Positions 25,031-55,241 of a DNA stretch of 64,000 nt are shown here, one piece after another; within the stretch, counting starts at the first letter, position 1; each line of letters begins with the position of its first letter. Source of the DNA: Gammaproteobacteria bacterium (GTDB lineage Bacteria; Pseudomonadota; Gammaproteobacteria; JABHGC01); NCBI GenBank assembly GCA_027077805.1, contig JALWTS010000005.1, forward strand, positions 1 through 64,000, in the 5' to 3' direction. A program made the translations under genes and the position numbers. A model generated the notes under the pieces. It made no database searches. It was not told the origin of the DNA and saw only the letters and a list, made by a program, of their open reading frames with translations.

Positions 25031-27514
25031 ATGGAAATTGATAATTATATCATTCATCAAGAAGTAGGACGAAGTGCGCTGGCAACCGTTAACTTAGCTG
25101 AGTATGAAGGTAGAAACGTTGCCATCAAAGTTTTTCGGCCATTTTTAAGCGAAAATCCATTATTCCAAGAAAAATTTTTGGAATTAAAAGATAGTTTTTT
25201 AGCTTTAAAGCATGAAAACTACATGCCAGTTTATGATATGGGAATTTGTCGTAAGCAATGTTATTGGTCTATGGAATATTTTCCTGAAGGTCCTTTGAAA
25301 CACCGATTGTTAGTCGGTATTCCTATGGAACAAGTGCAACAGGTAGTACAGTCTGTTGCGTTGGTTTTAGACTATCTTCATAATACAGGGGTGGCTGGTT
25401 TTATACATCATGGAATTTCCCCGAATAGTGTGTTTTTGCGAGAGGATGGTCGTGTGGTTTTAGGTGAAATTGAATTAGCACGAATCATTGCAGAACGTCA
25501 TGCCATTGCATTACCAATGAATCGCTTTAATGCTGGGCATGCCAGTCCTGAACAAGCAATGGGACAAAAACCTGATAAAAAAACTGATTTTTATCAATTA
25601 GGCATATTGCTTTATGAACTTTTAACGAAACAACCGTTATTTCACAGTTTAGAAAAAGAACCTGAAGAAATTTTGCAAATGCATATTTCTTCAGAAATTC
25701 CTGAATTGAAAGGGAAGGTTGCTTATTTACAGCCTTTCGTTGATAGGTTGTTAGCAAAAGACCCCAATGATAGAATTTATAATACTCGTCAATGTTTGGA
25801 AGCCAGTAAAATTTGGCAAACCGAACCCGAAGTGCTTGCGGATGGTGAAGAAGAAGCGATTTTAACATTACGACCACAATCGTCAACCATAGAAACCGCA
25901 AAACCTGACGCTAAAAAGTCTGGATTAGGCATTATGCTGAGTTTAGTGATAGGCTTGTCATTGATTGTGGCCATTGCTTATTGGTTATCGGTATCAACAG
26001 AGTCATCAGCTAACATTGAGGAGCAAGCAACGAATACTATGACGGAAGTTGATTCTGCCGAAAAGGAAATTGTGTATTTATTAGGATTGGCTCAACGACA
26101 GATTGATGCAAAACAATATGTAGAGCCTATTAATGACAATGCCTATGAAACCTATCAAAAGATTTTATTATTAGATAGTGATAATGTTGATGCTCAACAA
26201 GGTTTGGATAATTTAGCCAATACATTTGTTGATAAGGCAAAGCTACATTTAGAACAACATCAGTTAACAGTCGCATTAGAAGATATTGAAGAAGGCTTAT
26301 CATTTTTTCCAGAAAGCCAAGCATTATTGGAATTAGAAGACAATATTGTGCATCGCTTAGATGCGGCAAGTCGCCAACATTTGCAAGCATTACAAAATGA
26401 GCGAAAATTAAAGCAATTGACCGAACAAGCGACGAAGCAAATGCAACAAAAACAATTAGCTTTAGCATATCAAAGCTATCAGCAAATGGCACAATTAGAA
26501 CAAGGTAAAACACTCGCAGAACAGGGGCAAGCAAAGGTAGTCAATGCTTATCAACAAATGATTGATAAGGCTTTAAAAGATAAACAATTAAATAAAGCAT
26601 TTCAAACCCTAGAACAGGCATTAAAAACTATACCTAATCATCCTAGATTACTTGTCTTACAGGAAAAAGTTAAACAACAACAACAACAGTGGCAACGCCA
26701 ACGTCAACAAAAAATCCAAAAGTTAATGGCACAATCACAACAGTATATGCAACAACAACAATTAAAATCAGCGTATCAAAGTTTGCAACGAGTATTAGAA
26801 TTACAAGCCAATCATCTTCCTGCTCAAGCACGGCTCAATCAAATTGCAAATCTTTATTTAGAGACGGCGACCCAAGCACAAAGTACAGGGCAATTACAAA
26901 TCGCTTTAACCCAAATCCAAGAAGGGTTGAAGTTATTTCCGCAACATCAAGGGCTAAAACGTTTTAAAACAAGCATTGAAAATCAGATTAAGCTTGAACA
27001 ACGACGTTTGGCTCAACAACGGCAACTAGAACAACAAGCAAAACGGCAGCAGCAACAATTACAGCAACAACGCCAGATTGCCCAAACAGTACAACGTTTA
27101 TCGCAACAAATCGAACAAAAATTGGCTGATCAGCAGTGGCAGCAATCCTATCAAATTTATCAACAGTTGCAACAAATGGCACCTAATCATCCTAAAACTA
27201 ATATTTTATTAGAACGCATTGAGCAACAGCCTGTCCATTTAGCCAGAGAAAAACAACAACAAGGTTTCTTAAATCAAGCCTTAGTGCTGACCAAACAAGG
27301 TTTAGAAATTTTTCCTAGAAATATCAATTTGCAGCGTTTAAGACAAGAATTAACTCAGCAAATATCCGTTTCGATTCGGAAAAAACAACAGGAGCGAGAA
27401 CAGCGTGAACGGGAACGTCAACGTCAGTTGCAATTGCAACAACAACAATCTGCTCCTCAGCCAAAAGAGAAAGAAGAGGAACAACAAGACTTTCGCATTT
27501 TTGGCACGTTTTAG
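25031..27514 (+). CDS. membrane-anchored pseudokinase with Gln-rich TPR/coiled-coil tail
   Basis: 827 residues. Residues 5-270 have the Hanks-type kinase fold: VAIKVF with K33, a YMPVYDMG hinge region, SPEQAMG and TDFYQLGILLYELLT. The catalytic sequences are lost: the HRD loop reads HHGISPN (126-132), replacing the catalytic Asp by Gly and the Lys by Ser. The DFG position reads EIE (146-148), and the glycine loop is GRSALA. It is therefore likely a pseudokinase. One membrane helix follows (about 300-318), then about 500 periplasmic residues of TPR-like helices very rich in Gln. The gene lies between the barrel and the amidohydrolase. Confidence 0.85.
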   Translation: MEIDNYIIHQEVGRSALATVNLAEYEGRNVAIKVFRPFLSENPLFQEKFLELKDSFLALKHENYMPVYDMGICRKQCYWSMEYFPEGPLKHRLLVGIPMEQVQQVVQSVALVLDYLHNTGVAGFIHHGISPNSVFLREDGRVVLGEIELARIIAERHAIALPMNRFNAGHASPEQAMGQKPDKKTDFYQLGILLYELLTKQPLFHSLEKEPEEILQMHISSEIPELKGKVAYLQPFVDRLLAKDPNDRIYNTRQCLEASKIWQTEPEVLADGEEEAILTLRPQSSTIETAKPDAKKSGLGIMLSLVIGLSLIVAIAYWLSVSTESSANIEEQATNTMTEVDSAEKEIVYLLGLAQRQIDAKQYVEPINDNAYETYQKILLLDSDNVDAQQGLDNLANTFVDKAKLHLEQHQLTVALEDIEEGLSFFPESQALLELEDNIVHRLDAASRQHLQALQNERKLKQLTEQATKQMQQKQLALAYQSYQQMAQLEQGKTLAEQGQAKVVNAYQQMIDKALKDKQLNKAFQTLEQALKTIPNHPRLLVLQEKVKQQQQQWQRQRQQKIQKLMAQSQQYMQQQQLKSAYQSLQRVLELQANHLPAQARLNQIANLYLETATQAQSTGQLQIALTQIQEGLKLFPQHQGLKRFKTSIENQIKLEQRRLAQQRQLEQQAKRQQQQLQQQRQIAQTVQRLSQQIEQKLADQQWQQSYQIYQQLQQMAPNHPKTNILLERIEQQPVHLAREKQQQGFLNQALVLTKQGLEIFPRNINLQRLRQELTQQISVSIRKKQQEREQRERERQRQLQLQQQQSAPQPKEKEEEQQDFRIFGTF

Positions 27515-30517: not shown

Positions 30518-32689
30518 ATGTTAATTAGAAATTTAATGATAGCGTTATTTATCAATGGGTTATTCATGTTTTCAGTCAATGCGGATAACGCAAGCACTGA
30601 CATTACTTTTATTCATTTAGGGGATATTCATGGTCATTTAATCCCTAGACCCCATTTACGTAGTGATGGCAATGGTCAATTACAAGGTGGTTTAGCGAGA
30701 ATGTATCACTTAATTGAAACCATTCGTCAACGTCATCCGAACAGTTTATTAATTAATACTGGCGATACGATTCAAGGTTCTGCAGAAGCCTTATATACAG
30801 AAGGTCAAGCGTTGGTCGATGTTTTAAATTTGTTTAAAATTGATGCGTTCGCACCAGGCAATTGGGATTTTGTCTATGGGGAACAACGATTTCGGGAATT
30901 ATTTTCGTGTTCTTCTCGTAAATCTCGCTGTTTGGCTCCTTGGGGAGCATTAAGTGCGAATCTATATGATAAAAAAACGGGAAAGCGACTATTGCCTGCC
31001 TATCAAATTCGTCAGATTGGTGAGGTCAAGGTTGGAATTTTAGGATTTACGTCAGAGCGAGGGCCAATGGTAGTAGGTGCGCAAGTGGTCGATGAATTTC
31101 GTTTTAGTCATGGTGATGCTGAAATGGCGGAATTTATTCCGAAACTTAGAAATAAGGAAAAGGTTGATTTATTAGTCGTGATTTCAGAATTAGGCTTAGC
31201 GAATAATATTCGTTTGGCAGAAGCGCATCCTGGCATTGATATTGTGTTATCCTCTGATATGCATGAAGAAACACCTGATGCCGTGAGAACGTCCACTGGC
31301 ACATTAGTGGTTGAAGAAGGACAAGATGGTACGAGAGTCGGTGAGTTTACTGCCATTATGCAAGATGGAAAAATGGTGGATTATAAATTTAAAATGCATA
31401 TTGTGGATGCGTCTTTAGCGGAATCCCCTTTAATTGCTCAAAAAATCGCCGATATTCGAAAGCCATTTGTGAAGAATGGTAGTTTTAGCTCGCACCATCA
31501 TATTAATCCTATCAATGGTTTAAGTTTGACAATGCCAATTGATACGGTGATTGGTGACGCCAAAGTGCCTTTATATCGGGCTAATTATGCCAATGAGGAA
31601 ATGCCTGCTGTGATCGAAGGTAGTTCTCATAATTTTTTAACCGATGCTTTTCGAGTGGTTTCTGGTGCCGACCTTGGGCTATTGCGTGGGTTTCGCTATG
31701 GAACTCATATTGCACCAGGGCCGATTAAACTTGAAGATATTTATCATTATATCCCTATTGGGCCTTTTATCGCAAAAGGGGAAATGTCGGGGAAAAAAAT
31801 TAGAAATGTGATTGAAAAAAGTGCCGATGGTTCCTTAGCGACGCCAAAATATTGGAAAGGTGGTTGGTTGTTTGCTTGGAGTGGGATAACATTTGATTTA
31901 GAGCCAACCGCTAAAAAAGGTGAGCGTAGTCGTAATATTCAGGTATTAAATGCTGAAACGGGTGAATGGCAACCATTAGTGCTAAATAAAATTTATACGG
32001 TAGCGTCCTATAACTATGCGGTTGAACCCAATTTAATTAATAAAATTCCAGCAAAAAATGTTAAAGTAGTGAAAGATAAACAAAATACACCCTTAGATGC
32101 CACCGATGTTGTCGTAGAATATTTAAAACAACATCCTGCGAATCCTGGACCTAGTCGGATTCATTTGTTATCACCCTTGCCACCCCCTGCTTACAAAAAT
32201 TTAGAAATACAACCCTTATTAGGAGCAAATTATTCACCTGATCCCTTATTGTCATCAGAATGTCAAGCTGATATGAAAAAATATTGCAGTAATAAGTCAG
32301 GTAAAGAATTGAAGATGTGTAGCAAACAACACTATCAGCAGTTGCAATTGGCTTGCAAAGAAAAAATCTTACAATCTTTAGAAGATAAAGGCAGTTGTAC
32401 TTGGGATAGATATAAATATTGTTCCCAATATTTGACAGGACGATTGGATCAGCTTAAAGGGAAATTATTAGGTTGTTATGTGGAACACTTCCCCGTATTA
32501 TCCAAAACTTGTCAACAGAAAACGGAATTTTTAACCATTTGTGAACAGGATATGCGTCGTTTTTGTGAATCAGTAAAAGCGGGGGGCGGTAGAGTAACTT
32601 ATTGTTTGAAAAGTAATTTTGATAATTTAACGGTGCGTTGTGGTGGTTATTTATTAGAACAGCGTAAAAAAAAGCAAGGAATGGGTTAG
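30518..32689 (+). CDS. SoxB-like metallophosphoesterase/5'-nucleotidase fused to Cys-rich GLG1-type repeats
   Basis: 723 residues with a signal peptide. Residues about 28-560 are a SoxB/5'-nucleotidase two-domain enzyme: HLGDIHGHL, INTGDTIQGS, GNWDFVYG (Trp replaces the usual His of GNHE, as in SoxB) and, in the C-terminal domain, SHNFLTDAFR and GFRYGT. SoxB removes sulfate from the SoxY carrier in thiosulfate oxidation. From residue 582 the protein carries three units of pattern C-x7-C-x(10-17)-C-x11-C, twelve Cys in all, like the Cys-rich GLG1/FGFR repeat family. This C-terminal addition is not part of ordinary SoxB. No soxYZ or soxAX is in the window. Confidence 0.8.
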   Translation: MLIRNLMIALFINGLFMFSVNADNASTDITFIHLGDIHGHLIPRPHLRSDGNGQLQGGLARMYHLIETIRQRHPNSLLINTGDTIQGSAEALYTEGQALVDVLNLFKIDAFAPGNWDFVYGEQRFRELFSCSSRKSRCLAPWGALSANLYDKKTGKRLLPAYQIRQIGEVKVGILGFTSERGPMVVGAQVVDEFRFSHGDAEMAEFIPKLRNKEKVDLLVVISELGLANNIRLAEAHPGIDIVLSSDMHEETPDAVRTSTGTLVVEEGQDGTRVGEFTAIMQDGKMVDYKFKMHIVDASLAESPLIAQKIADIRKPFVKNGSFSSHHHINPINGLSLTMPIDTVIGDAKVPLYRANYANEEMPAVIEGSSHNFLTDAFRVVSGADLGLLRGFRYGTHIAPGPIKLEDIYHYIPIGPFIAKGEMSGKKIRNVIEKSADGSLATPKYWKGGWLFAWSGITFDLEPTAKKGERSRNIQVLNAETGEWQPLVLNKIYTVASYNYAVEPNLINKIPAKNVKVVKDKQNTPLDATDVVVEYLKQHPANPGPSRIHLLSPLPPPAYKNLEIQPLLGANYSPDPLLSSECQADMKKYCSNKSGKELKMCSKQHYQQLQLACKEKILQSLEDKGSCTWDRYKYCSQYLTGRLDQLKGKLLGCYVEHFPVLSKTCQQKTEFLTICEQDMRRFCESVKAGGGRVTYCLKSNFDNLTVRCGGYLLEQRKKKQGMG

Positions 32690-46323: not shown

Positions 46324-46345
46324 GGGGCGAACGGCCGTTCGCCCC
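46324..46345. repeat. perfect 22-base GC-rich palindrome
   Basis: GGGGCGAACGG (46324-46334) is followed directly by its complement CCGTTCGCCCC (46335-46345). It is far more GC-rich than its surroundings and lies between two convergent genes, 16 bases after the pilX stop. Palindromes of this core are known to me as dispersed repeats in some bacteria. It may also work as a bidirectional terminator, though no T-run follows. Confidence 0.75.
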
Positions 46346-46358
46346 TATATTCACCAGA

Positions 46359-49124
46359 TTATTTAATCCGTTGCGATAAGGTTTTGAGATCAAAATCGGC
46401 CTCACTGATATTCACGTTAAACCGATAATTTAACCAAACCATTTTGCTAATGTTTCCATTTTGCTTATTAGTCATGACGATTTCACCTGCCCGCCAGTGC
46501 TTACCTAAATAACCCTTAAATTGATTGGCCGTATAAATTTTAATAACTTGTTTCTTATTATTATAATAGACTTTTTTAAGCGTGCGGAATGCGTCTTTAT
46601 CAATCCAGCGTTCCTCATAAGCATAATTCGCACTCATTTTAGGCTTTGCTTTGATGACAAAACAATTTTTGCCATTATAGGTTTGGCTTTTTATCAATTG
46701 GTAATCAAATTCATATAAGGCTTGTAAATTTAAATCGAGATAAGAAAATTCACTGCCAGCAAACGAACCTAACTGATTATTTTCTGATATTTTAGTGGCT
46801 CGGCGAATGGCAGGAATATATAAGAATTGTTGATCGGTCAATTTTTCTCTGTGTTTTGTTAATAATGCCGTGCCTTTAATATCATCTGATTTCACTATCA
46901 CTAATAAACTTTGTTCTAAACTTTGGCTAATTTCCTTACTAATATAACTAAACTGGTGTTTCGTCGTTTCACCATGTTTCTTATTGATAATCAGTATCAT
47001 ATCTGCGATTTGCTGACCATAACCACGAAGACGGTTTCTCGCTTCTTCTGCAATCATAAAGCCTTTTTTAGCCGAACTAACTTGGGCGTTACTAATGCTT
47101 GATGCCGTTTGTTGAGGAATGTTAATCCTTATTTCGGGGGATGTGCTTGGATTGTTGACGACTTTTTGTTGGGGCTGGGCATTATTTGGTGAGGCATTTT
47201 TTATCTCATTGTTTTCAATGGTATCAAAATCTTCTTCAATTGCATTAAGGTTTGTTTCCGTTGTGCTATCATCACCATAACCATCGTCTTCATCACCATA
47301 ATCATCATCATAGTCATCGTCATAATTATCCTCTTCATCCTCATTGTAACTATCATCCTCATCTGCTTCAGATGTCTGATTGTAGTAAGGAATGCGAAAG
47401 GGAAGTTCAAAAGGCAGTTTAAATTTGGGATCCACTTGTTTGGCAGCAATTAATAAACCAAGCATAAGTCCAGCAAGTAATGCGAGATAAATACTCCATT
47501 TCATTAATTTTCCGATAACACGAAATAAACCCGCAAAGAAACGGATAATAATATTCGGTTTATCCTCTTTTGGTTTTTTATGTTGTTCTTTTTTAGTATG
47601 AGCACCAATTTTGATTTTTTTGTTGGATTTAACTGGTGGTGTTGGTTTTGGACTAGCCGTTTGATTAGTTCCAAATCCTTGAGGGGCTTCGCCAATTTCA
47701 ATTTGTTCTATTTCAGCATTATCAAATGGACTGCTTGTTTTGGTTTGAGGGGGGGATTTTGCTTGGGTTTTAGATGTTTGATTGGCTTTTGAAAGCACAT
47801 CAATATCGTCAATTGATAATGGTTCATCATCAAGGATGCTGGTTTTTTTAGTTTGTGATCGAGCTTGGCTTGCTTTTTTTGTGGTTTTAGGTGGGGGGAC
47901 TGATTTTTTAGTGGATGCTTGTTCATCTAATGGAAAGGGTAAATTTGCTTCTGCTTCAGCAATGGTATCTAAAGCTTGATCTAATTCTTTGGCGATTTGA
48001 TCAAATTCATTCCCTAAGTCGGCAAAATCATCGTTAGGTTGGTTTGCTTTTGCTGATTTTTTAGCAGAAGTGGCGGTTTTTGGTGTTGCGTTAGGTTTTG
48101 GCGGTTGAGGTTTTTTCGATGGTGATTGAGGTTGGGCTTTCGTCTCAACGGGGTTAGGTTCTTCTATAGACAAATTGCTAAAATCAATTTCTAATGCGTC
48201 TGCAATCGATTGTTCTTGCCTATCTTCCAGTTTTAGTTCTGATTTAGGTTTAGAGGCGGGTTTTGTTTGGGCGTTGGTTTTCGCTTTGTGTCTGTTTAAA
48301 AATTCGCTACGTCTTTCCAGCATGGCATGCAATCGGGCAATTAATTCTTTGGCTTTGACGGGTTTTGCTAAATAGTCGTTGGCTCCTGCATGAAAAACTT
48401 TGTTAATGGTCTCATCACTGGTATCACCTGTAATAATAATACAAGGTGTCTGGGAAATGACGGGATTTTTAAGGCGACGTAGGGTTTGCACAAATTCATC
48501 ACCATCTAAACCTTCTTCTGCAAGATTGAGGTCGGAGAGAATAATATCATAGTTTTTGGTGGTAATCACTTCTAAGGCTGCTTCAGCACTTAAATAATGT
48601 TCGATAGTAAACGGTTCCGTTTCTAAGGCTTTGCTTAAAAAATGGGCAGCCGTGCGACTGTCTTCAATTAAACAGATCAAGCCATTTTTTTGAGAGTTGC
48701 TTTGGCGTTCTTTATGGTGAGCTTTTGACGCATAATTTTTCATGCGTGCTTCTAAGGCTTTAAAATTTAGGGGTTTGATTAAATAGTCATTGGCACCTGC
48801 ATTAAATACGTCCAGCAATACTTGATCATCTTGACTGCCTGTTGCGACTAAAATTGGAATTTTATTAATGCTAATGTTTGGGTTTTGACGTAAGGCTTTG
48901 ATTAAATCAATGCCATTCATGCCTGTGGCCGATAAGGTCAAATCCGTAATCAATAAATCATATTTTTGTTGTTGAATGGAGGCTAATGCTGATTCCGCAT
49001 CTTTGAAATGCTGATAATCATATTCTGGCAATTTATCCAGAAATTTTTTCACTGGGAAGGCAGCGGTTTTGCTATCTTCAACGAAACAAACTTGAAATTT
49101 ATTGGCGTAGGTGGTCATAGTCAA
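46359..49124 (-). CDS. double receiver protein fused through a membrane helix to a periplasmic LolA-like domain
   Basis: 921 residues. Receiver 1 (10-130) has acceptor D61 (LLITDLTL) and K117; receiver 2 (147-270) has D198 (IILSDLNL) and K254. A 260-residue linker rich in Pro, Lys and Gln follows. One membrane helix is at about 543-561 (SIYLALLAGLMLGLLIAA). After an acidic Asp/Tyr stretch (588-620), residues 688-921 match the LolA-like 'outer membrane lipoprotein-sorting' domain: SDDIKGTALLTKHR, FLYIPAIRRATKIS, GSFAGSEFSYLDL, YEERWIDKD and LGKHWRAGEIVMTNKQ. That domain is normally a separate exported protein encoded beside RND pumps. The gene lies downstream of tolC. Confidence 0.85.
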   Translation of the reverse strand: MTMTTYANKFQVCFVEDSKTAAFPVKKFLDKLPEYDYQHFKDAESALASIQQQKYDLLITDLTLSATGMNGIDLIKALRQNPNISINKIPILVATGSQDDQVLLDVFNAGANDYLIKPLNFKALEARMKNYASKAHHKERQSNSQKNGLICLIEDSRTAAHFLSKALETEPFTIEHYLSAEAALEVITTKNYDIILSDLNLAEEGLDGDEFVQTLRRLKNPVISQTPCIIITGDTSDETINKVFHAGANDYLAKPVKAKELIARLHAMLERRSEFLNRHKAKTNAQTKPASKPKSELKLEDRQEQSIADALEIDFSNLSIEEPNPVETKAQPQSPSKKPQPPKPNATPKTATSAKKSAKANQPNDDFADLGNEFDQIAKELDQALDTIAEAEANLPFPLDEQASTKKSVPPPKTTKKASQARSQTKKTSILDDEPLSIDDIDVLSKANQTSKTQAKSPPQTKTSSPFDNAEIEQIEIGEAPQGFGTNQTASPKPTPPVKSNKKIKIGAHTKKEQHKKPKEDKPNIIIRFFAGLFRVIGKLMKWSIYLALLAGLMLGLLIAAKQVDPKFKLPFELPFRIPYYNQTSEADEDDSYNEDEEDNYDDDYDDDYGDEDDGYGDDSTTETNLNAIEEDFDTIENNEIKNASPNNAQPQQKVVNNPSTSPEIRINIPQQTASSISNAQVSSAKKGFMIAEEARNRLRGYGQQIADMILIINKKHGETTKHQFSYISKEISQSLEQSLLVIVKSDDIKGTALLTKHREKLTDQQFLYIPAIRRATKISENNQLGSFAGSEFSYLDLNLQALYEFDYQLIKSQTYNGKNCFVIKAKPKMSANYAYEERWIDKDAFRTLKKVYYNNKKQVIKIYTANQFKGYLGKHWRAGEIVMTNKQNGNISKMVWLNYRFNVNISEADFDLKTLSQRIK

Positions 49125-49172
49125 TTTTTTTATCCCGATTGATTTACGCTCAATCGGGATGTTATTAAATAA

Positions 49173-50579
49173 TTATTGAGCAAGGTTGACATTACCTGTC
49201 AGCCATTGATTTAAGTTTACAATGTCTTCTGCAGATAACATTCCTGCCGCTTGTTTTAAACGAAGGGTATTGAGAATATAGTTATAACGTTCGTTTTTAT
49301 AATCTCTTTCGGAACGGTGGTAATCTCGTTGGGAGTTCAATACTTCCACAATGGTACGAGTTCCTACTTCAAAACCCGCTTGGGTGGCTTCAAACGATTC
49401 TTTATTCGAAACGACCGCTTGTTTTAATGCGGTAACTCGGCTAGTGCTTGCCATCACATCATTGTAGGCTTGACGGGTTTGACTGACTACCGTACGTTGT
49501 TGCGTTTCTAAGTCATTTTGGGCTTTATGATAATCATGAGTGGCTTGTCTTGTTTTGGAAACGATTGCTCCACCTGAGTATAAAGATAAAGAAAATTGTA
49601 AGGCAAGTGAATCATTGCGTTGCACTCGATCACCGCCACCTGTTAAGGGAGATTCTGAACTCGATAAGTTTTTGTCTTCATATTCACGGGCCGCAACTAA
49701 ATCCAAGGTCGGAAAATGATTGGCACGTTGCAGTTTAATTTCTTTGCGAGCACGTTCCACATTATTTTGGGCTGAAATAATATTAGGATTTTGACGGATC
49801 GCCGTTTCTTTCCATTGTTCAATATCCTGGGGATCGGGGGGGAGTAAGGGCATATTATCGCCTAAGGCACTGAGTTCGGTATGATATTGTCCGGTAATTT
49901 CCCGTAACGACTCTAAAGAATTTGCTAAATTGTTTTGAGAAGCAATTTCATCGGCAACGGAATTGTCATAACGAGCCTTAGCTTCACTGACATCCGTCCC
50001 TGCAATTAAACCGACTTCATAACGTTTGCGAGTTTGCTCTAAATGGCGTTGGGTAGCAGTTTTTTCGACTTTGGAAAATTCTAAGTTATTATAAGAAATC
50101 AACACATTAAAATAAGCTTGTGCTGTCCGCAAGATTAAATCTTGTTCTGCCGCTACTAAATTCGCATCTGCCTGAGCCAAAATATTATCAACCTGTTGCC
50201 AACTAATATGGTTGCCATAATTAAAAATTGGTTGTGTTAGTTGGATTTGATAGGAATTCGTATTAAAATCATGGCGTTCCGTATCACTACTATTGGAATC
50301 CCCTTGGTTGGCCGCTGCTAATTGGTCGGTGAGTAGGGTGGGTTGAGTAAAATTGACATCATTGTCTTTGGTTTCCGCACCAAAAGTGATGCTGGGTAAA
50401 AACTGGGAAAAAGCTTGGGGCTTGGCTTCATAAACTGATAGCCTCTCTGCTTTCGTTGATTTAAGACTGGGATCAGAATCCAATGCTAATTCGTAAATTT
50501 GTTGTAAATTTTCGGCTTGCACAGTGCAAATCTGACTTGCCAGAAAAATAGGTAAAATAAAATGATAAGTTTTTTTCAT
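49173..50579 (-). CDS. tolC: TolC-family outer-membrane efflux protein
   Basis: 468 residues with a signal peptide (KKTYHFILPIFLASQICTVQA). It then shows the TolC repeat pattern of two coiled-coil hairpins: ENLQQIYELALDSDPSL, RKRYEVGLIAGTDVSEAKARYD and FEATQAGFEVGTRTIVEVLNSQRDY. It forms the outer-membrane duct for tripartite efflux or type I secretion. I use the ATG at 50579, preceded by GGGGA; an ATG at 50618 is in frame. It is divergent from the MFP-RND pair, which likely supplies its partners. Confidence 0.93.
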   Translation of the reverse strand: MKKTYHFILPIFLASQICTVQAENLQQIYELALDSDPSLKSTKAERLSVYEAKPQAFSQFLPSITFGAETKDNDVNFTQPTLLTDQLAAANQGDSNSSDTERHDFNTNSYQIQLTQPIFNYGNHISWQQVDNILAQADANLVAAEQDLILRTAQAYFNVLISYNNLEFSKVEKTATQRHLEQTRKRYEVGLIAGTDVSEAKARYDNSVADEIASQNNLANSLESLREITGQYHTELSALGDNMPLLPPDPQDIEQWKETAIRQNPNIISAQNNVERARKEIKLQRANHFPTLDLVAAREYEDKNLSSSESPLTGGGDRVQRNDSLALQFSLSLYSGGAIVSKTRQATHDYHKAQNDLETQQRTVVSQTRQAYNDVMASTSRVTALKQAVVSNKESFEATQAGFEVGTRTIVEVLNSQRDYHRSERDYKNERYNYILNTLRLKQAAGMLSAEDIVNLNQWLTGNVNLAQ

Positions 50580-50741
50580 AAGGTTATCCCCGTATTGGTT
50601 GTTAATACCATTGTTCATTGGTATAAAGATTTTTATTTTTCTAATGATTTATTGTTTTTCTTGTCTATAATATAACCTGATTCTTAGAAAAATCAATGAA
50701 ATCTATCTTTACTCATACATTATATCAAAAGATTTTTTATC
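50580..50741. promoter_or_regulatory. divergent tolC / efflux-pump intergenic region
   Basis: 162 AT-rich bases carrying the start regions of tolC (leftward) and the MFP gene (rightward). A perfect TATAAT at 50666-50671 could be a rightward -10, but no good -35 lies at 16-18 bases. I see no convincing operator palindrome for a TetR- or MarR-type repressor, and no such regulator gene is adjacent. Confidence 0.3.
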
Positions 50742-51758
50742 ATGTGGATGCGAATATTCTCTATTATTTTGAGTTTTATCATTGTAACAACTGTTTATGC
50801 CGATGATGAAGCGATTCCTGTTACTGTACAAAAATTAGAAAAATTGTTTATTTACCCACAAATCGAGGCACCTGCGTCTGTCGTGAGTATGAATGATAGT
50901 CAGATCAGTGCGGAGGTGAGTGCGAAAATTATTGAAATTCCAGTGGCGGTGGGTGATATTGTGGTAAAAGATACTACTTTGGTGCAATTGGACATGGCAG
51001 ATTTTGAATTGGAGCATAAACGCTTAAAAGTGAAACTTGCCCGAGTAGCCGCACAACTTAACCAAGCCCAAACGACCTTGAAACAACAAAAAGATTTGGG
51101 TAGAAATACCAGTAAATCAAAACTTAAAAAAGCTCAAACGGATGTACGAATATTGCAACTGGATTATCAAGAATTCAGTGTTGCCGTCAATAAAGCCGCC
51201 AGAAATATTGAAAAATGTGTGATTCATTCGCCATTTACAGGCTTAGTTTTAGAACGACTGGGCAAGGTAGGGGAATTTGTGAGTCCGGGGAAACCCATTA
51301 TACGGGTGATGGATGTGGAACGGATTGAAGTCTCTGCTCAAGTGCAAAGCAAAGATATTGAAAGTTTAGAAGCCACCGATAAATTATATTTAGAGTATCA
51401 AGAGAAACGTTATCCATTAAAACTGCGTACTGTCGTCTCACTATTAGATTCTCGAACTCGAACGCAAGAAGTCCGTTTAACTTTTTTGAATGAACATGCC
51501 TTACCTGGAACATCAGGGCGTTTAATTTGGAATGAAATTAAACCCCATTTTCCACCAGAGATTTTAGTGCGGCGTAAAGGGAAATTAGGGGTAATGGTTT
51601 ATAAAAATAAGCGGGTTAAATTTGTTGAATTAACGCATGCCTTAGAAGGTCGTCCCATTTTAGCCACTTTACCTGGTGCTACTTGGGTTGTCATCAATGG
51701 GCGTTATAGTGTGAAAGAGGGTGATACTGTTAAAGCCAGCAAACATCACGGTAAATAA
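50742..51758 (+). CDS. RND efflux periplasmic adaptor (MFP/HlyD family)
   Basis: 338 residues with a signal peptide (FSIILSFIIVTTVYADD), then barrel-sandwich half (AEVSAKIIEIPVAVGDIVVKDTTLVQLD), coiled-coil hairpin (LKVKLARVAAQLNQAQTTLKQQ) and second half (VIHSPFTGLVLERLGKVGEFVSPGKPIIRVMD). The adaptor bridges the RND pump and TolC. No N-terminal lipobox is seen, so it is not an AcrA-type lipoprotein. The pump gene follows 12 bases later. Confidence 0.9.
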   Translation: MWMRIFSIILSFIIVTTVYADDEAIPVTVQKLEKLFIYPQIEAPASVVSMNDSQISAEVSAKIIEIPVAVGDIVVKDTTLVQLDMADFELEHKRLKVKLARVAAQLNQAQTTLKQQKDLGRNTSKSKLKKAQTDVRILQLDYQEFSVAVNKAARNIEKCVIHSPFTGLVLERLGKVGEFVSPGKPIIRVMDVERIEVSAQVQSKDIESLEATDKLYLEYQEKRYPLKLRTVVSLLDSRTRTQEVRLTFLNEHALPGTSGRLIWNEIKPHFPPEILVRRKGKLGVMVYKNKRVKFVELTHALEGRPILATLPGATWVVINGRYSVKEGDTVKASKHHGK

Positions 51759-51770
51759 AATCCAATCATT

Positions 51771-54700
51771 ATGTTTAAAAATCTACTTGAAAATCATGTA
51801 TTAGCAACCTTAACCTTTGTTTTGGTTTTGGTCATGGGGTTATTGGCGTATTTTCAGATGCCGAGAGAGAAAAATCCTTCATTTAATTATAATGCGGTTG
51901 CTGTGGTTGTCTTATTACCTGGGGCTTCTACTTGGGATATAGAAAAGGCCTTAACCATTCCTGTCGAACAAGCGGTGGCAAAAGTGGATGATGTGAGAAC
52001 GGTTACCAGTGTGAGCCAAGAGGGGTTATCGACGACGATTGTCCGTTTTGGTGATATCAATGATGAAACCTACGATAGACGGATTACCGATCTGCGCCGT
52101 GAAGTACAAAATATTAGCAGTAGTTTGCCCCCCGAGGCCTCATCGCCAACCATTAGTTCTGTGAATAGTAGTAATTCCTTCCCTAGTGTCAGTGTGATTA
52201 TTACAGCCGTTGCGAATGATGAAAATTTAAGAAAACAAGCCGAATATGTCAGCAAAGATTTGGAACGAATTAAAGGGGTGGAAAGTGTTGGTGCGGTTGG
52301 TTTGCATGAGCCTGAGTATCAAATTCGGTTTCATCCAGAAGAACTGCAAGGGTTAGGGATTTCACCGACTTCTTTAGCCGATACGGTACGTTCGCATTTT
52401 CGTGATATTTCAGCGGGAACCATTAAGGTGAATGATCAACAGTGGGTAGTGCGTTTAGTAGGTGCGGTGAATGATTTAGAATATTTGGCTAAGTTACCCG
52501 TATTAACGGCGAATGGGGAAGTGCCGTTAGAAACGGTCGCAGATGTCGTTCGTGGCCGATCCAAAGCCACGGGTTTGGCAAGATCACAGGGAAAACCTGC
52601 TATTATGATTAATTTGACTAAAAAAGGGAGCGCGAATACTTTAAAATTGTTAGATGATGTCAGAAACTATATTGAACAACGTAATGCTCTTAAACATTCC
52701 ACTGGAATTGAATTATCCTTGCTTTATGATCAAACCGCTAGTATTCGTAATTCCATTGCAGTCATGGAAAGCAATGCTTTTTGGGGACTAATTTTGGTCA
52801 TGTTTATGACATGGTTATTTTTGGGCTGGAAAATTGCGTTATTAACGACATTAGGGATTCCCTTTACCTTAGCAGGAACTTTTTGGATATTGTCTATGCT
52901 AGGTTTTACCATGAATAATCCCGTGTTACTCGCTATTGTCATTAGTTTGGGGATGTTAGTCGATGATGCAGTAGTCGTGGTGGAAACGATTTATCATCGC
53001 TTACAAAAAGGAGGCGATGCCGTTACCGAAGTCGCCTTGGCACTGCAAGAAGTGATTCCCCCTGTGTTATCCGCTGTATTAACGACTATTGCCGCCTTTT
53101 TGCCCTTAATGTTGTTGCCTGGGGTCTTAGGTAAATTTATGTTGGTTGTGCCATTAGTGGTAACGGTGGCTTTGATTTTTAGTTTAACTGAATCATTTTG
53201 GATGTTACCCTCACATGTTCAGGCTTGGGATGTGAATTTTACGGGTGAAAGTCATTCGCAACGTATGCGAGAAAAACTTACTAAAAAACTGCGGCATCTT
53301 TATACCAAGCTTTTGTTTAAAGTAATGCGGTGGCAAAAATTATCACTGGCTACAGCGGTAGGTTTATTCTTTTTGTCAATTTATGCGGTTTCATCTGATA
53401 TTGTTAAAGTCAACTTTTTTGCCTTTGATTCGTATCGAGTCTTTTATATTGATATTGAATTAGAACCAGGGACTTCTTTAGATCAAACTTTAGATAAAAT
53501 GTTAGAAGTTGAAAATCTAATCCGTGATAATGCGATGTATGATGAGATTCGTGCCGTCGCTTCCAGTGCGGGTCGAGCCAATGGTAAAACTGGCGATCAT
53601 TTAGGACGGATATTAGTTACTTTGCAACCTCCTCGTCCCGATTTGCGTAAACTCGATGAAATGGTAGAGGCGATTCGCCCTATTATTACCAACATTCCTG
53701 GCACTTATAATGTGAATTTAGTGACATTTTCGGATGTGCCACAATCACCTGCGATTAGTGTTAAGATTCGAGGGGATGATTTTACCGAAATCAATGCGGC
53801 TGCCAAGGCTTTACATGAAATTGTTGAACAAATGGAAGGCAGTAGTGATGTGAAAATTGAAGATAATACGGGCAGTATGCAGTTATCGTTTCAATTAGAT
53901 GTCGATGCTGTCAGACGAGCTGGTTTAAATCCTGAAATGGTGTCTCGTACCATTCGTTTGATGGTGGATGGTGAAGTGCTAACAAGTGTACAAGATCAGG
54001 GGGAACAAGTAGATATTCGCTTATTGAGTTCAAGAGGTGTTTGGAACAATATTGATGAGTTTATGCGACAAACCATCGCCTTGCCAAATGGTGGGGGGGA
54101 TATTCCTTTGGCTCAACTATTGTCATATAAAGTAGAGAGAGGGACGGGTAAGATTCGACATTATCAATTTCGTCGTTCCATTACTTTAGAAGCGGATATT
54201 GATAAATCAATTATGAACACGGTGCAAGCGAATCAATATGTAAAAGAGGAATGGGAAAAAATTCAGATTGATTATCCTAATGTCAATTTGGACTTCTCAG
54301 GTGAATTAGATGATATTCAAGAAAGCCTGGATGCTTTAGTGAGTTTATTTTTATTTGGGATTTTATTGATCTTTTTGATTTTAGGGACTCAGTTTAATAG
54401 TTTTAGTCAGCCATTGATGATTTTATTTACCGTTCCCATGGCGTTCATGGGAGTCGTATTAGGCTTGTTTGTGACGAATAATCCTTTAAGTTTGTTTACG
54501 ATGTTTGGTGTGGTTGCTTTAGCGGGAATTGCGGTGAATGATGATATTGTATTGATTTCAACAGCGAATGACAGTCGTAAACGTGGGGTGAGTAAATTAT
54601 ATGCGGCAATTTATGCGGGACGACGACGCTTTGTGCCAGTGATTATTACCTCATTAACGACCATCGCAGGCTTATTTACTTTGGCAACGGGTTTAGCTGG

Positions 54701-55241
54701 CTTTTCCCTAATGTGGGGACCTGTTGCGGTAGCAATTGTTTGGGGTTTGGCCTCTTCGACGGTATTGACTTTATTTATCTTACCTGTGATTTATTATAAC
54801 TTTAGTAAAGAGACGATAGTGCAACGTGATTGTTTGCCTAGACGTCTATTTTTAAGGTTGACCCCATTATTATCATTTGTGTCCTTTTTATTACCGAAAG
54901 GGAGTTTAGCCTCTCGTCAAGTGGATCAAGTCGAATCAGCGATGATGGCACAATCGAAAGGGGCGAAATTGATGAAAGAAGGCAAATATTGGGAAGCGAT
55001 TTTGCATTTTGAAGAAGAAGCCAATGCCGATCCTGAGAATAAAACTTTAAATTTAAATACGGCTCAAGCGATGTTGATTTTTATGCAGAAATTTGGAGCA
55101 GATGTGGGATTTTTAAAACGATCCAAACGCTATTTAGATAGAGTCGCTCAACAAGATTCTGGGGACAAGCGTTATCGACGCTTATTAAAACTTTATCAGC
55201 AGTTAGTGATTACAGGCGGTGATTCACCGAATTTAGAATAA
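51771..55241 (+). CDS. RND efflux pump with C-terminal TPR-like extension
   Basis: 1156 residues. Twelve membrane helices and two large periplasmic loops follow the HAE/AcrB plan: MPREKNPSFNYNAV, GASTWDIEKALTIPVEQAV, and the proton-relay helix ISLGMLVDDAVVVVETIYHRL with its Asp pair. The last helix ends near residue 1010, where ordinary pumps stop. About 145 further residues follow; from about 1058 they form TPR-like helices (MAQSKGAKLMKEGKYWEAILHFEEEANADPENKTL). The tail would be cytoplasmic. Drug or metabolite specificity cannot be read. Its stop overlaps the trpF start. Confidence 0.9.
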   Translation: MFKNLLENHVLATLTFVLVLVMGLLAYFQMPREKNPSFNYNAVAVVVLLPGASTWDIEKALTIPVEQAVAKVDDVRTVTSVSQEGLSTTIVRFGDINDETYDRRITDLRREVQNISSSLPPEASSPTISSVNSSNSFPSVSVIITAVANDENLRKQAEYVSKDLERIKGVESVGAVGLHEPEYQIRFHPEELQGLGISPTSLADTVRSHFRDISAGTIKVNDQQWVVRLVGAVNDLEYLAKLPVLTANGEVPLETVADVVRGRSKATGLARSQGKPAIMINLTKKGSANTLKLLDDVRNYIEQRNALKHSTGIELSLLYDQTASIRNSIAVMESNAFWGLILVMFMTWLFLGWKIALLTTLGIPFTLAGTFWILSMLGFTMNNPVLLAIVISLGMLVDDAVVVVETIYHRLQKGGDAVTEVALALQEVIPPVLSAVLTTIAAFLPLMLLPGVLGKFMLVVPLVVTVALIFSLTESFWMLPSHVQAWDVNFTGESHSQRMREKLTKKLRHLYTKLLFKVMRWQKLSLATAVGLFFLSIYAVSSDIVKVNFFAFDSYRVFYIDIELEPGTSLDQTLDKMLEVENLIRDNAMYDEIRAVASSAGRANGKTGDHLGRILVTLQPPRPDLRKLDEMVEAIRPIITNIPGTYNVNLVTFSDVPQSPAISVKIRGDDFTEINAAAKALHEIVEQMEGSSDVKIEDNTGSMQLSFQLDVDAVRRAGLNPEMVSRTIRLMVDGEVLTSVQDQGEQVDIRLLSSRGVWNNIDEFMRQTIALPNGGGDIPLAQLLSYKVERGTGKIRHYQFRRSITLEADIDKSIMNTVQANQYVKEEWEKIQIDYPNVNLDFSGELDDIQESLDALVSLFLFGILLIFLILGTQFNSFSQPLMILFTVPMAFMGVVLGLFVTNNPLSLFTMFGVVALAGIAVNDDIVLISTANDSRKRGVSKLYAAIYAGRRRFVPVIITSLTTIAGLFTLATGLAGFSLMWGPVAVAIVWGLASSTVLTLFILPVIYYNFSKETIVQRDCLPRRLFLRLTPLLSFVSFLLPKGSLASRQVDQVESAMMAQSKGAKLMKEGKYWEAILHFEEEANADPENKTLNLNTAQAMLIFMQKFGADVGFLKRSKRYLDRVAQQDSGDKRYRRLLKLYQQLVITGGDSPNLE

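Follow-up and report, generated by a model that had tools for sequence, protein, structure and literature searches.

A tandem-receiver protein joined through one membrane helix to a LolA-like domain beside tolC and RND genes, and its possible role in envelope transport

Introduction

Proteins of the LolA fold hold hydrophobic cargo, and the same fold is used in envelope-stress sensing: RseB/MucB is soluble in the periplasm and acts on an anti-sigma factor. As regards control, two-component systems are known to regulate efflux pumps and envelope transporters through transcription. To our knowledge, known MacA proteins carry no receiver domain.

In general terms, the following described systems are among the closest to the locus analysed here: (i) AmeABCD, a monoterpene-efflux cassette of the HAE3 RND type, whose AmeB (DUF1329) has been placed in the LolA superfamily (PMC6394551); (ii) an MMPL-LolA fusion (TOL_3187), induced 42-fold on the n-C28 alkane (PMC6304351); and (iii) the tripartite pump MacA-MacB-TolC (reviewed in PMC5985334). 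In a Borrelia cluster, a LolA-like protein is paired with a MacB-like transporter (PMC13078400). No description of a receiver-LolA or a receiver-HlyD fusion was found in the open-access literature.

A receiver-LolA protein is encoded in the window, i.e., the whole stretch of DNA that was analysed (64,000 nucleotides of contig JALWTS010000005.1 from a gammaproteobacterial assembly). What is new here is a small, moderately supported receiver clade whose other members are fused, via one membrane helix, to a MacA/HlyD adaptor.

Architecture of the fusion protein

The gene and the parts of its product are as follows:

46359..49118, minus strand: rec-rec-TM-lolA fusion gene, 919 aa from ATG, a single unbroken frame
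48714..49094, minus strand: receiver domain 1 (Pfam PF00072; 178 bits with the clade-specific receiver model)
48942-48944, minus strand: acceptor Asp59 of receiver 1
48303..48677, minus strand: receiver domain 2 (Pfam PF00072; 177 bits with the clade-specific receiver model)
48531-48533, minus strand: acceptor Asp196 of receiver 2
47514..48293, minus strand: linker predicted to be cytoplasmic, residues 276-535, poorly conserved, with a high content of Lys, Pro, Ala and Ser
47442..47498, minus strand: single membrane helix, residues 541-559, predicted N-in/C-out
47250..47375, minus strand: acidic Asp/Glu/Tyr stretch of the predicted periplasmic linker, residues 582-623, by direct reading
46377..47078, minus strand: LolA_like domain (PF17131), residues 681-914, by Pfam and structure-sequence match

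The original prediction of a receiver-receiver-TM-LolA fusion proved real: one open reading frame encodes, in order, two receivers recognized by Pfam, a 260-residue linker, one membrane helix, an acidic linker and a LolA_like domain. The frame 46359-49124 (minus strand) gives 921 aa when counted from a TTG start. An ATG lies two codons further on, at 49118, and is the likelier start because the homologue in a second genome (G001, see below) begins at the equivalent ATG; the TTG at 49124 is possible too. The acceptors that had been named D61 and D198 are correct in the 921-residue numbering and correspond to D59 and D196 from the ATG.

Pfam finds Response_reg twice (5.6e-43). The acidic (ED) pocket, the acceptor Asp, the T/S and the Lys are present in both receivers of both fusion genomes and are identical in all four; the window acceptors are intact and so, as far as residues can tell, phosphorylation of these receivers is chemically possible. 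Within the fusion protein, Pfam gave no match to the HisKA/HATPase_c domains of a hybrid histidine kinase or to a GGDEF output domain of the PleD type. The membrane helix has a mean hydropathy of 2.15 (1.16 for the second-best segment), with four K/R among the 20 preceding residues, and the receivers are therefore predicted from hydropathy to be cytoplasmic and the LolA domain periplasmic. In the G001 homologue, the place of the acidic stretch is taken by a run of Glu and a stretch rich in Pro and Val.

The Pfam match to LolA_like covers residues 737-917 and positions 3-183 of the 184-position profile (E 1.8e-40; 139 bits vs a cut-off of 30). By sequence, the LolA part matches the solved structure 3BK5 over 234 residues (E 2.2e-40), and 4Z48 and 9TP6 match as well. 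Single-sequence structure prediction was too poor for use (mean pLDDT 58.6 and 33.8).

Distribution of the fusion and its LolA_like paralogues

The order to which the window belongs is represented in the comparison set by two genomes, that of the window (G000) and G001, which belongs to another genus. The latter encodes a fusion of 891 aa with the same architecture, 38% identical to the window protein. The linkers of the two proteins have diverged from each other, and the receivers have diverged to 54-59% identity with their acceptors still intact. Apart from these two, no receiver-LolA fusion was above threshold in the genomes covered, 369 from the class and 399 from the phylum. When the G001 fusion was used as query against the same genomes, whole-protein matches were obtained only in the window genome and G001; the remaining matches listed were confined to the LolA domain, and almost all of them lie in frames about 260-350 aa long. 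With the window protein as query, the scan of genome contigs returned generic receiver matches only.

Free LolA_like proteins are usually found in an MMPL-LolA-DUF1302-like cassette, and in most loci examined they adjoin MMPL and/or DUF1302-like homologues, which bears out the expectation of a normally free protein beside MMPL-type RND genes. Such a cassette is present in G001 (L040). The window genome also encodes a free LolA_like, with no MMPL beside it at its locus (L036), and one true LolA. In G088 (L054:1324-4533, minus strand), an MMPL permease is fused to LolA_like in a protein of 1069 aa that resembles TOL_3187 of Thalassolituus.

In the tree, the two fused LolA domains form a group of their own (100/99), separate from the free copies, those of G000 and G001 among them; a recent fusion of the genome's own free LolA_like was rejected on this ground. 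Mean identity to free LolA_like is 32% for the fused window domain and 40% for that of G001, and 60% among free copies. The fused domains keep only 43 (window) or 58 (G001) of the 85 positions that are near-invariant in free LolA_like, and therefore their cargo or partner may differ from that of the free proteins. From these comparisons, the fused domain looks like an old, fast-diverging, specialised extra paralogue.

The fused domain does not match PF03548. The genome's only match to that family is a separate gene (C31:103416-103892), so that replacement of true LolA by the fusion was rejected, and there is one MacB_PCD protein of LolC/E-like size. Having its own true LolA and LolC/E-like permease, the genome should not need the fusion protein for ordinary lipoprotein sorting. 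Control of lipoprotein sorting as such, one of the outcomes first envisaged, is accordingly not supported; published work ties LolA_like homologues to RND cassettes for apolar compounds instead.

Gene neighbourhood

The elements adjoining the fusion gene are:

49132..49160, no strand assigned: 11-bp perfect inverted repeat in the gap that separates tolC from the fusion gene (0 expected after shuffling)
49173..50618, minus strand: tolC, outer-membrane channel (TIGR01844, 333.6 bits)
50742..51758, plus strand: RND periplasmic adaptor, MFP (TIGR01730), divergent from tolC
51771..55241, plus strand: RND permease (ACR_tran), 1156 aa, about 145 of which make up a C-terminal extension

Profile matches confirm that tolC, MFP and RND genes lie beside the fusion. 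tolC is directly upstream, in the same direction, with a gap of 54 bases to the ATG. The permease is of the AcrB/MuxC (ACR_tran) type, not of the MMPL type usual beside free LolA_like, and with tolC, MFP and an ACR_tran RND as neighbours the fusion does not sit in an AmeABCD-like MMPL/LolA/DUF1302 cassette. The tripartite set (MFP, RND and TolC) occurs at 49173-55241 of the window and at locus L035 of G001, the sole relative with the fusion, and the two RND proteins are 65% identical. In both genera, the only two in which this linkage was found, tolC lies upstream in line with the fusion and the MFP-RND pair is divergent.

Of 273 class genomes, about 30 have an orthologue of the RND permease, at an identity of 42% or more. 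At 20 other RND-orthologue loci, neither a tolC match nor a receiver-LolA gene was found near MFP-RND, so tolC and the fusion seem, from these comparisons, to have been added to the MFP-RND locus within this order. A general tolC/RND neighbourhood as the cause of the linkage was rejected, as orthologous RND loci elsewhere are without tolC match or fusion. In G094, an MMPL-LolA-DUF1302-like cassette lies about 10 kb from an RND orthologue. In any case, a shared neighbourhood shows that genes are associated, which is less than a physical complex of their products. The large window genes that were scanned include no histidine kinase.

Several other features of these loci can be described. The extension of the window RND (about 1012-1156) is apparently common to G001 and shorter or absent in most orthologues, whose matches mostly end near residue 1015; it has a weak TPR match. 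On the minus strand, the 11-bp inverted repeat precedes the ATG by 13 bases; it is not a classical terminator, because no T run follows. A perfect, GC-rich 22-bp palindrome (46324-46345), present as a single copy in the window, separates the fusion from a convergent pilX-like gene and is possibly a bidirectional terminator or a repeat element. Downstream of the G001 fusion (L035:1061-2218, minus strand) there is a gene for a 385-aa protein that matches nothing in Pfam or NCBIfam, and after it comes a gene with a weak FIST/NosP-like match. Elsewhere in the window, 25031-27514 encodes an 827-aa protein in which a Ser/Thr protein kinase domain precedes TPR-like repeats, and 30518-32689 a 5'-nucleotidase/metallophosphoesterase with a C-terminal Cys-rich FGFR repeat.

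Receivers fused to MacA/HlyD adaptors

In the first sample of the class, the best receiver match was not a normal response regulator; it was a 1554-aa protein of G037 (L100:6306-12924), in which six receiver-like domains, a linker and one membrane helix lead to an adaptor of the HlyD/MacA type; the genes that come next encode an ATPase of the MacB type and a permease (MacB_PCD/FtsX). A profile of fused receivers then retrieved seven more receiver-linker-TM-adaptor proteins (G300, G197, G065, G102, G317, G191 and a degenerate one in G128), which brings the adaptor fusions to eight genomes in five families among the 369 class genomes. The MacB ATPase and permease are directly downstream in five of the eight (G037, G300, G197, G102 and G317); the frame of G191 runs off its contig. 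The window protein, first treated as an isolated case, seems instead to be a branch of an architecture that is more widespread, and the regulated export machine put forward in the original prediction gains independent support from these adaptor fusions, in which related receivers are joined to MacA-type proteins encoded beside MacB.

A histidine kinase/OmpR-type regulator pair is encoded near the adaptor fusion in two genomes, just upstream in G065 and nearby in G300; these pairs (L129:4479-9192 and L127:5553-12243) are candidates for the source of the kinase that would act on the fused receiver. The G128 protein (L126:1165-4281, minus strand; 1038 aa) is unusual in having four parts: two degenerate receivers, a membrane helix, an HlyD adaptor and a C-terminal rhodanese domain.

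A receiver of this clade, a linker, one membrane helix and a periplasmic transport domain occur together in ten proteins, for which a group of receiver-TM-periplasmic transport subunits is proposed. Acceptors are intact in seven of the ten, LolA and adaptor forms together. The acceptor Asp is lost in three of the eight adaptor fusions, being Ser in five G037 receivers, Asn in G317 and degenerate in G128; phosphorylation is therefore not general to the wider group, which leaves room for a docking role. Outside the window genome, the clade receiver had no match in a further 150 genomes of the phylum, nor was there any in plasmids.

Proposed function

All of these proteins have in common a receiver, predicted to be cytoplasmic, that a long linker and one helix connect to a periplasmic subunit of an export machine of the TolC or MacB type; the simplest interpretation is that phosphorylation controls this subunit, either because receivers pair or because a partner is recruited. 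The window protein is tentatively regarded as a periplasmic carrier or accessory subunit, anchored in the inner membrane, of a TolC-linked export machine, and its activity or assembly would be set by phosphorylation of its own receivers. The proposed sequence of events is: (i) a histidine kinase or phosphotransfer protein would phosphorylate Asp59 and/or Asp196; (ii) the receivers would change conformation or pair up, and the anchored protein would cluster or change its binding; and (iii) via the helix and the long periplasmic linker, the receivers would set the uptake of hydrophobic cargo by the LolA-like domain from the adjacent RND-MFP-TolC, or its delivery to them. The machine served is likely the adjacent TolC/MFP/RND set. 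Phosphorylation, the direction of signalling, the partner, the cargo and the kinase are all elements that we infer.

Phospho-control is supported by (i) acceptors and pockets that are intact despite diverged linkers, a single helix that is rightly placed, and a neighbourhood kept in both genera; (ii) the fusion of the nearest class receivers to MacA/HlyD adaptors, with HK/OmpR-type genes near those of G065 and G300; and (iii) the ties of LolA_like to RND transport otherwise (MMPL-LolA cassettes, MMPL-LolA fusions and AmeABCD). Against it weigh the occurrence of the LolA form in two genomes only, the lack of a histidine kinase among the large window genes scanned, the loss of the acceptor in three adaptor fusions, the low number of near-invariant LolA_like positions kept by the fused domain, and the fact that gene neighbourhood is no more than an association. 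A broader proposition, which we hold to be doubtful, is that of response regulators with periplasmic output, in which one receiver lineage is joined by a disordered linker and one helix to export subunits (MacA-type adaptors with MacB, LolA_like with TolC/RND), for direct phospho-control of envelope transport.

The same topology would suit an outside-in sensor, in which the LolA-like domain detects a periplasmic lipid or a mislocalised lipoprotein and its occupancy alters receiver phosphorylation, tuning a kinase or relay as a phosphate sink or an allosteric brake. The LolA fold is used in sensing by RseB (sigma-E pathway)/MucB, and the window receivers are without a further cytoplasmic output domain, which fits a sink. 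However, receivers usually act as inputs, the related ones are joined to MacA-type transport adaptors, not to sensory domains, and the genes adjoin transport genes; a sensor is thus an unlikely role.

Equally improbable is a docking or scaffold role, in which the receivers, by binding other proteins, would tether the periplasmic subunit to a signalling or polar complex and phosphorylation would be optional. Loss of the acceptor with the rest of the receiver kept, as in G037 (where the five best aligned of the six receiver-like domains have Ser), G317 and G128, is what such docking would allow; but most fusions keep it, and in the LolA form none of the four receivers has lost it in spite of their divergence.

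Origin of the fused receivers

It is also conceivable, if quite improbable, that the LolA form and the MFP form got their receivers separately, in which case the MFP relatives would say little on the LolA protein. With the single-receiver profile, the listed fused receivers of the class score about 130 bits or more and the next receivers 105 or less, a large gap that goes against separate fusion and arises partly by construction, since the fused sequences had gone into the profile; the degenerate receivers of G128 fell below the limit of this search. In a tree of 71 rows, the fused receivers form one group, with the second receivers of PleD-type tandem-receiver proteins as their nearest unfused relatives. 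This group has moderate support (90/72, or 87/80 when long rows are left out), and placing the LolA-form receivers outside the clade gives a tree that is not rejected (p-AU 0.31), both of which leave separate fusion some room, whereas the fused receivers come together in the best tree and in 86-90% of bootstraps. On these sequence data, a single origin is favoured, short of being shown.

Finally, an artefact, a chimeric assembly or a decaying gene is very improbable and was rejected, for although the fused LolA domain diverges faster, the independent G001 fusion excludes the frameshift or assembly join once feared in the linker, both genera having an intact frame with intact active-site residues, an identical architecture and the same neighbours.

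Comparison with known systems

If fused receivers act on a pump adaptor or a lipid carrier, envelope transport could be switched quickly and post-translationally, from the inside out; phosphorylation, in place of a change in gene expression, may then be the direct means by which cells control it. Were this true, uncharacterised LolA_like proteins would gain a functional handle. The adaptor-MacB version is a simpler system than the LolA one, and the architecture can be tested in few genes.

Like the window protein, RseB/MucB uses a LolA-fold domain in transmembrane signalling, but it is soluble and has no receivers. Tandem receivers are shared with PleD-type REC-REC-GGDEF proteins, whose cytoplasmic GGDEF output has no counterpart in the window protein. 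As to free LolA_like (PF17131; 3BK5, 4Z48, 9TP6), the window protein is homologous to 3BK5 over the full-length domain; while the free protein is exported alone and belongs to an MMPL-LolA-DUF1302-like cassette, the window copy is membrane-tethered, placed under receivers, and has no MMPL adjoining.

AmeABCD resembles the window locus in combining an RND permease, a LolA-superfamily periplasmic protein (AmeB) and an outer-membrane protein (PMC6394551), and differs from it in having no signalling domains and in its HAE3/MMPL-type permease and DUF1302 protein, as against ACR_tran and TolC in the window. In MMPL-LolA fusions (TOL_3187, PMC6304351; G088), LolA_like is covalently joined to an export component, as in the window, but it is carried by the permease itself and there are no receivers. 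With MacA-MacB-TolC, the TolC partner is held in common, and receiver-TM-MacA-type fusions were found here beside the MacB ATPase/permease; the window protein differs in that it has LolA_like in place of the adaptor.
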